From contig NZ_JAUCZH010000004.1 in the NCBI RefSeq assembly GCF_030373185.1, positions 434,001-498,000 on the forward strand: a stretch of 64,000 bases of DNA, in the 5' to 3' direction. The notes beneath the pieces were generated by a model, which was not told where the DNA came from, did not search any database, and saw only the letters and a list, made by a program, of their open reading frames with translations. The DNA comes from Tabrizicola sp. Lineage in GTDB: Bacteria > Pseudomonadota > Alphaproteobacteria > Rhodobacterales > Rhodobacteraceae. Positions 63,061-64,000 of the stretch are shown here, in pieces. How positions within the stretch are numbered: position 1 is the stretch's first letter; each line of letters starts with the position of its first letter. The position numbers were made by a program, and so were the translations under genes.

Positions 63061-63384
63061 ATGAGTGCTTCGGACGAAAACACCCTCTCGCGCCGCAAGG
63101 CGTTTACCAAGATCGCAGGCCTGGCTCTTGCCGTCTACGCTGCACCCGCGATGACCACGTTGAGTGTAGCCCGTGCCAGCGGCGCCAGCAGTTCAAGCGG
63201 GTCCAGTGGCTCCAGCGGGTCCAGCGGCTCCAGCGGCGCAAGTGGCTCAAGTGGCTCCAGCGGCTCAAGTGACGCCTCCAAGGCCAGCGCAGCGTCGGAG
63301 GCCAGCAAGGCATCCTCGTCAAGCTCGTCCAGCGGGCCAAGCGTCTGCTCGGGACCGTCTGACTCCGGCTGTGTGCAGCCCTGA
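63061..63384 (+). CDS. Exported Ser/Gly-repeat protein
   Basis: A 107-residue protein behind GAGGAG. The N-terminus (SRRKAFTKIAG, then LALAVYAAP) is a Tat-like signal, with a likely cleavage near VARA at about 39. From residue 40 to the end, 35 of 68 residues are Ser, first as GSS triplets (42-70), then SK/SE-containing repeats (KASAASEASKAS) and a run of seven Ser (85-91). The tail has two Cys (96, 104). No family function is known to me. The gene just downstream encodes an HprK-like Ser-kinase fold, making a substrate-modifier pair possible. Confidence 0.75.
   Translation: MSASDENTLSRRKAFTKIAGLALAVYAAPAMTTLSVARASGASSSSGSSGSSGSSGSSGASGSSGSSGSSDASKASAASEASKASSSSSSSGPSVCSGPSDSGCVQP
63180..63330 (+). 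repeat. Degenerate 9-bp tandem repeats encoding GSS
   Basis: In-frame units of the type GGCTCCAGC vary at third positions (TCC, TCA, AGC, AGT), so the protein repeat is kept while the DNA repeat is degenerate. That indicates selection on the peptide. Confidence 0.7.
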
Positions 63385-63397
63385 TTGCGTGAAAGCT

Positions 63398-63429
63398 CCC
63401 CGTTGACGCGGCAGGCCGGGTCAACGGGG
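63398..63429 (+). promoter_or_regulatory. Strong intercistronic stem-loop
   Basis: CCCCGTTGAC (63398-63407) pairs perfectly with GTCAACGGGG (63420-63429) around a 12-base loop, 13 bases after the Ser-rich stop and just before the ribosome site of the next gene. No T-run follows. It could cap the upstream mRNA and lower expression of the kinase. Confidence 0.65.
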
Positions 63430-63446
63430 ATCAAGGGGCGGTACGG

Positions 63447-64000
63447 GTGGCACAGGATATCGTCTTTCGGGGGCTGACTTCGCCGCTTCGCCTGCATGGG
63501 GCCGAGGCTGTGCTGCCGCTGCTGGCAAGGATCGTGGTCGGCTGGCCCTATGACATCCGCGCGGAAAACCCGGGCATCGCGCCGTTCTTTTCGATCAGCG
63601 GAACCCCTGACGCCGGTCTGTTCCTGTGCCAAAGCCATGTGGAGCCAAAGCCTGCGCTTCGGCTTGATCCGGTGAATGCCCTTTGTGACGCGATGGCGGC
63701 GCTTGCGCTGGCCCTGCCGGCGGAAGATCCGGGATTGATCTGCCTGCACGCAGCCGCTGTTGCAATGGCAGGTCGGCTTGTGGTCTTTCCAAGCGTTCGG
63801 CGAGCGGGGAAAAGCACACTTGCCGTTGCCTTGGCCCAAGCCGGACATGGGCTTTACAGCGACGACGTGCTGCCCCTTTCCGTCACGGTGGACCACGTTG
63901 CCCATGGTCATGCGATGGGGACCGCGCCGCGCCTTCGGCTCCCGTTGCCGGAGACGCTTCCTGCGGATTTTCGGGATTGGGCAGAAGCGAGGGCCACGAT
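63447..64000 (+). CDS. HprK-like kinase (incomplete at window edge)
   Basis: GTG start at 63447 behind AAGGGGCGG, open for 184 codons to the edge. The second half matches the HPr kinase/phosphorylase-like P-loop fold: ICLHAAAVAMAGRLVVFPS, then the nucleotide loop SVRRAGKSTLAVALAQAG (K122), SDDVLPL and a basic RLRLPLP segment. The first Gly of the classical G-x4-G-K-S loop is replaced (PSVRRAGKS). HprK relatives phosphorylate Ser on proteins or small molecules and occur in peptide-modification clusters. No HPr gene is near. It is 62 bases after the Ser-rich gene. Confidence 0.75.
   Translation, partial: MAQDIVFRGLTSPLRLHGAEAVLPLLARIVVGWPYDIRAENPGIAPFFSISGTPDAGLFLCQSHVEPKPALRLDPVNALCDAMAALALALPAEDPGLICLHAAAVAMAGRLVVFPSVRRAGKSTLAVALAQAGHGLYSDDVLPLSVTVDHVAHGHAMGTAPRLRLPLPETLPADFRDWAEARAT

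Follow-up and report, generated by a model that had tools for sequence, protein, structure and literature searches.

Two adjoining genes at the downstream end of a 64,000-nucleotide stretch of Tabrizicola sp. DNA (the window; G000:C4:434001-498000, read on downstream as L002) very probably form an enzyme-substrate unit, in which a small exported protein built of Ser repeats is served by an HprK-like kinase that carries its own RRE (PqqD) domain. The preliminary description of the window had suggested a substrate-kinase pair, possibly with a RiPP-like precursor, and this reading is now supported by the fusion of the RRE to the kinase, by a YxxP-hydrophobic leader on the small protein, by the pairing of the two genes in every family locus examined and by their joint absence from congeners. 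The features of the unit, and of related genes elsewhere, are collected in Table 1.

Table 1. Features of the Ser-repeat/kinase pair (window positions) and of leader-tagged genes in other loci (positions within each locus)
Feature	Position	Strand	Basis or remark
Ser/Gly-repeat exported protein, proposed substrate	63061..63384	+	ORF of 107 aa
Leader, predicted twin-arginine signal peptide, residues 1-39, predicted AxA cut at its end	63061..63177	+	leader profile E 4.4e-16 (the window leader is itself one row of this profile)
Twin-arginine pair R11 R12	63091..63096	+	R-R in 61/61 aligned leaders (selecting pattern required R/K-R)
YxxP-x-hydrophobic motif YAAPAM, proposed RRE docking site	63136..63153	+	61-leader alignment
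Ser/Gly-repeat core with C-terminal Cys pair (CSGPSDSGC)	63178..63381	+	composition, lag-3 excess
RNA hairpin between substrate and enzyme genes	63397..63430	+	folding of spacer
Putative kinase-RRE fusion gene	63447..64000 (cut by window edge; whole gene 63447-64664)	+	405 aa, GTG start
Predicted catalytic His, H101	63747..63749	+	invariant in 32/32 aligned kinases
P-loop G-K-S, G121-K122-S123	63807..63815	+	invariant in 32/32
Asp-Asp pair D139-D140	63861..63866	+	invariant in 32/32
Leader-tagged PepSY-like genes	L100 6502-7038, L101 8064-8597, L102 5916-6416, L103 8246-8665
Leader-tagged PepSY-like genes, continued	L105 7635-8165, L115 7268-7900, L174 3900-4430; also L011, L043
Leader-tagged S8 subtilases	L109, L116, L118, L169, L170, L172, L187, L188 (Shinella)

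The Ser-repeat precursor and the adjoining enzyme

The small protein runs from a short N-terminus through SRR and a hydrophobic stretch holding the YAAPAM motif to an ARA-SG cut site, after which the Ser/Gly core begins and continues to the C-terminus, CSGPSDSGCVQP, whose Cys pair recurs in close relatives. The earlier statement that more than half of the mature protein is Ser, in patterned repeats, holds on both counts: once the predicted signal peptide is removed, 35 of the 68 core residues are Ser (51%) and 12 are Gly, and S/T pairs at lag 3, the one spacing tested, number 28, against an expectation of 17.2 when the core residues are shuffled (p 0.002). Among 62 cores tested in the same manner, a set that includes one mis-picked ORF (L024), an excess at lag 3, again the one spacing tested, was found in 49 at an uncorrected p<=0.05 and was lacking at that level in 13. 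The repeats themselves are diverse (for instance GSS, SEP, SAA, SGG, SRP and SNKSGK), with a Ser/Thr period of three recurring and with the residues beside the repeated Ser/Thr ranging from acidic to basic. In a quick kinase tree of 51 rows, with SH-aLRT support only, the 32-row group that includes the window's enzyme (support 99) has cores low in K/R, and a 15-row group (support 100) has at least 12% K/R in 14 of its 15 cores. Some cores outside the family are poor in Ser/Thr (4% in L079, 9% in L089). We note that a long ORF (63135-63911) lies on the minus strand opposite the Ser repeat; we read it as no gene because its EPL repeats mirror the Ser codons.

It is the leader, rather than the core, that is the conserved part of these precursors. 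Across 61 aligned leaders, Y is found in 60, P in all 61 and one of L/M/F/V/I at P+2 in all 61, with the proviso that the pattern used to select them required R/K-R, P, and Y/F/W/H at the Y place; Ala occupies the two AxA columns in 56 and 55 leaders of this same pattern-selected set. A search free of this pattern, which asked only that a basic residue be followed by a hydrophobic stretch, gave 38 precursors, and every one of them has Y/F-x-x-P. In the window precursor the Y lies at -14 and the P at -11 before the predicted cut. The NCBIfam Tat model TIGR01409 did not report the window protein at E<=1.

A hairpin between the two genes had also been proposed, and it is real: the spacer (63385-63446) folds with an MFE of -31.1 kcal/mol (z -3.46), and strong hairpins recur at the same place in relatives (z < -2 in 27 of the 60 spacers tested). 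Such a structure would hold the substrate message above the enzyme message.

The second gene extends beyond the window edge, and the contig, read further, gives it whole (L002 2448-3665). Its product divides into an HprK-like part (about residues 1-290) and a PqqD/RRE part at residues 335-399, the latter matched by Pfam PqqD above cut-off. The H-K-D-D set (H101, K122, D139, D140) is intact in the window enzyme and throughout the 32 kinases of alignment A1; the window P-loop, SVRRAGKST, is without what we take to be the first Gly of the Walker-A consensus. The preliminary description had called this an HprK-like gene, which profile and fold both uphold. The best NCBIfam match is HprK_rel_A (TIGR04352; 9e-13), yet at 47.9 bits (60.4 bits for the relative L029) it falls far under that model's cut-off of 200 bits, the companion PqqD model TIGR04353 matches weakly, and Pfam Hpr_kinase_C scores 12.9 bits, under its cut-off of 33.3. 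The HPr-rel-A system that these two NCBIfam models describe is among the closest known systems, and the model titles consulted name no substrate; canonical HprK/P resembles the window kinase in fold and active-site layout, but not at the level of the Pfam score.

When the A1 profile was compared with the PDB, it matched the lasso RRE TbiB1 at 4.8e-7 (profile positions 319-396), together with other lasso PqqD proteins, and HPr(Ser) kinases at 4.1e-5 at best (positions 97-149). An AlphaFold2 model of L029, built with 10 further relatives (pLDDT 88.8, pTM 0.87), was matched by Foldseek to HprK/P and ATP-PEPCK, the HprK matches being loose over the L029 fold (TM by target about 0.5, rmsd >7 A), and its C-terminal part to the TbiB1-leader complex 5v1v (1.8 A over 84 columns, TM by target 0.83). 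From profile and modelled structure, the best reading of the 405-aa protein is therefore a kinase of the HprK/PEPCK fold with an RRE of its own.

Downstream of the fusion lies ptsP on the opposite strand, convergent with the pair; the genes after it are aspartokinase, purD and xseA, and the pair is preceded by an acyl-CoA synthetase gene. Because convergent ptsP comes next, the operon ends after two genes and the earlier guess that further cluster genes lie beyond the window edge fails: the unit in the window genome consists of two genes only. Of the partners that had been suggested for the downstream region, PqqD is present, fused to the kinase, but an asparagine-synthase-like (PF00733) cyclase gene is not beside the pair, the window genome having two weak partial matches on other contigs.

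The proximity of ptsP, together with the HprK-like fold, raises the alternative that the enzyme regulates PTS proteins (HPr, NPr or PtsP) and that the Ser-rich protein is an unrelated passenger. We consider this very unlikely. The genome has a separate Hpr_kinase_C gene above the Pfam cut-off (C2:13109-13330), the ORFs beside which we read as rapZ and a mannose-type EIIA. Moreover, among the clustered neighbourhoods only those of L002 and nine close relatives have the ptsP-type ORF family (about 748 aa), as compared to a leader ORF accompanying the kinase in all family loci, and the fused RRE suggests a peptide substrate.

Presence and absence of the pair across genomes

Relatives of the kinase were found in 24 of 295 genomes of the family and, among genome_contigs, at 12 loci belonging to Tabrizicola, Rhodobacter and Rhodobacteraceae MAGs. 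In the order, 31 of 292 genomes have a relative at E<=1e-10, 23 of them with whole fusions (kinase part E<=8.1e-66) and eight with HprK-like matches that are weaker or partial (no better than 4.4e-25). Each of the 50 distinct family loci examined has a leader-bearing ORF directly before the kinase; these ORFs are about 90-140 aa long, and from 45 to 235 nt separate their ends from the start of the kinase match. This set was obtained after dropping duplicates (L004, L040, L041, L042, L044-L046, L051), weak matches (L063-L069) and L039, which begins inside the kinase; in two of the 50 loci the kinase is incomplete (L026 at a contig end, L022/L027 in two frames), in L024 the automatic ORF pick was wrong and the right leader ORF was identified separately, and in L012 the core is masked.

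The preliminary description would have been undermined by a Ser-rich gene occurring in relatives without the kinase, and this was searched for with a profile of the 61 leaders (A2), run on the same listing of 292 order genomes as the kinase search. The profile matches 23 genomes (best E<=1.9e-11), which are exactly the 23 with a whole fusion. This agreement is partly by construction because the profile includes leaders from those genomes, and the informative part is the 269 genomes that lack the whole fusion: in these the leader was not found, save for four weak matches (2.3e-4 to 7.4e-4), all ordinary Tat signals that belong to larger proteins and lack both YxxP and a Ser repeat, and the eight genomes with only weak HprK-like matches gave no leader match. 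The search scored at most 26 candidates per genome, so that a poorer leader could escape. Fisher's test for co-occurrence of leader and fusion gives 1e-34, a value that overstates independence because all 23 genomes belong to one family. Outside the training set, two of six kinase-matching plasmid records were opened, from Paracoccus marcusii and Shinella, and leader-bearing genes are present on both. On the P. marcusii plasmid pCP157_02 (L187 3318-4058) the precursor lies in a stretch where no gene is listed and seems to be out of frame after the leader.

At finer scale, the acyl-CoA synthetase/ptsP junction is syntenic in five congeners. The module is present in three, namely the window genome G000, G409 and G464, and in the other two the sequence between the flanking matches (73 nt in G191, 410 nt in G406) matches neither gene significantly. 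Where one gene is present so is the other, and the two behave as one unit. In G409 (L185) the kinase gene and ptsP are separated by about 1.5 kb of extra sequence.

Low-complexity Ser/Gly proteins are common, and their very commonness would favour the view that an ordinary exported protein of this kind lies by chance beside an orphan HprK-like gene. With the pairing unbroken in the family loci examined, the joint absence in congeners and no leader beyond weak, ordinary-Tat matches in the fusion-free genomes, we find this scarcely credible.

Among farther relatives, in other orders, the kinase and PqqD are often separate, adjoining genes, and at class level, where wider neighbourhoods were fetched for 20 of 29 loci, some of them ending at contig ends, a leader ORF was found in 12 and none in 8. 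Five split kinase-PqqD pairs (L128, L129, L135, L137, L138) have genes for a two-component-type regulator, RegA/ActR-like in our reading, and an ABC transporter nearby, and no leader ORF was found with them.

Relation to lasso-peptide kinases and the proposed modification

The closest functional precedents come from lasso peptides, as described in two reports (PMC9266682, PMC10368454). The lasso kinases PadeK, ThcoK, SyanK, PsmK and BsfK are likewise HprK-like with H-K-D-D, a motif shown there to be essential in lasso kinases. The nearest case with experimental data is BsfK, for which Ser3 of the precursor is the phosphorylated residue and the reaction is strongly accelerated by the RRE BsfB1; Bradymonadales lasso leaders have YxxPxL at -17 to -12 before the cut (both PMC10368454). 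The window pair shares with these systems the RRE partner (B1, in the case of BsfK), the YxxPxL-type leader and, presumably, a Ser target. It differs in that its RRE is fused to the kinase, in that its leader is also a predicted twin-Arg signal peptide and its core a Ser repeat, and in that the lasso protease PF13471 is absent from 22 of the 23 fused-kinase genomes (the remaining one has it 0.64 Mb from the kinase), a search of the window genome at E<=0.001 finding none. By analogy, then, the pair would work like a lasso-peptide kinase; it is not a lasso cluster. One genome, G184, has a possible true lasso cluster (G184:C1:3162355-3165226, with PF13471 and NTP_transf_5 within 3 kb) and a fused-kinase pair elsewhere. 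No description of such a pair was found in the open-licence literature, where RRE-assisted HprK-like kinases were found solely as lasso-peptide tailoring enzymes; here the same logic stands alone.

On balance we think it probable that, ahead of export, the RRE guides the kinase to phosphorylate Ser/Thr residues of the precursor. The small gene would yield a precursor whose twin-arginine signal peptide doubles as a recognition leader (YxxP-x-hydrophobic) ahead of the Ser-repeat core. In the cytoplasm, the RRE domain of the kinase might dock on the YxxP segment and the kinase would phosphorylate Ser (or Thr) of the repeat with ATP. The modified precursor would then be exported by Tat and its leader cut by signal peptidase, the end product being a phosphorylated Ser-rich peptide outside the cell. 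YxxP need not be the docking site, because the Y/P/L-to-Ala changes tested in BsfA did not affect phosphorylation (PMC10368454).

Alternatively, the phosphate might be an intermediate, with phospho-Ser subsequently glycosylated, or converted by elimination into dehydroalanine, which the C-terminal Cys residues would then trap. A precedent exists in PsmN, an annotated nucleotidyltransferase that adds hexoses to the phospho-Ser of a lasso peptide, giving pseudomycoidin (PMC9266682). PsmN resembles, we would guess, NTP_transf_5, and of nine kinase genomes tested from outside the order, eight have an NTP_transf_5 gene, which in four (G564, G643, G720, G618) is no more than about 2 kb away from the kinase; the Cys pair of the window protein and its close relatives would also suit such a route. 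However, only 3 of the 23 fused-kinase genomes of the family have NTP_transf_5, far from the kinase in each, the window genome has none, and no lyase or cyclase gene was found adjoining the pair. We regard this route as unlikely.

The same leader on other exported proteins

In the window genome the leader profile found the Ser-rich protein as the sole tagged protein, but among relatives the leader is not restricted to Ser-repeat precursors. At nine loci a PepSY-like protein bearing this leader is encoded downstream of the kinase gene. Seven were tested against Pfam PepSY, two scoring above the cut-off, four below and one (L103) not being reported; the Tat model TIGR01409 gives the L100 protein 13.4 against a cut-off of 16.7. 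Response-regulator and histidine-kinase genes lie downstream in six of the nine neighbourhoods (L100, L101, L102, L103, L105, L115), with one of each confirmed by Pfam. S8 proteases bear the same leader in six family genomes (Peptidase_S8 above cut-off in 6/6) and on both plasmids, seven of the eight ending in SGE, with Shinella L188 the exception. A sigma-70-family gene is nearby in all three family neighbourhoods checked (L109, L116, L118) and on both plasmids. Two more tagged genes lie on contigs other than that of the kinase (G361:C9, G333:C35). In these tagged proteins the segment after the leader is Ser-rich or of low complexity, but in the G329 protease it is mainly Asp/Gly/Arg.

The conservation of the leader rather than the core, and its occurrence on proteins with unrelated mature domains, might be explained if the RRE binds the leader and the enzyme acts as a Tat-export chaperone or gatekeeper, with the nucleotide site serving for timing and not for Ser modification. 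We hold this to be quite unlikely, as a Ser-rich stretch follows the leader in most tagged proteins, the G329 protease excepted, and the H-K-D-D catalytic set is invariant. Under the preferred reading, RRE-guided phosphorylation, one might speculate that in Alphaproteobacteria a single RRE-kinase recognises a signal-peptide tag shared by several unrelated exported proteins and modifies the Ser tracts that they carry, a tentative extension that we think possible, though less likely than not. Outside the cell the modified protein could perhaps serve as a metal-binding or surface polyanion or as an envelope signal, and the two-component and sigma-factor genes beside relatives are a hint of envelope signalling.

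If phosphorylation before export is the correct reading, the pair would represent a dedicated bacterial route to secreted phosphoproteins, one in which the recognition leader doubles as the export signal and is common to proteases and PepSY-like proteins. The leader would offer a substrate signature usable for searches, and the pair is small enough for direct testing in E. coli. Should the common tag also prove true, the set of tagged Ser-repeat proteins, PepSY-like proteins and S8 proteases would mean that RiPP logic is employed in these bacteria for general protein modification, and not for a natural product.
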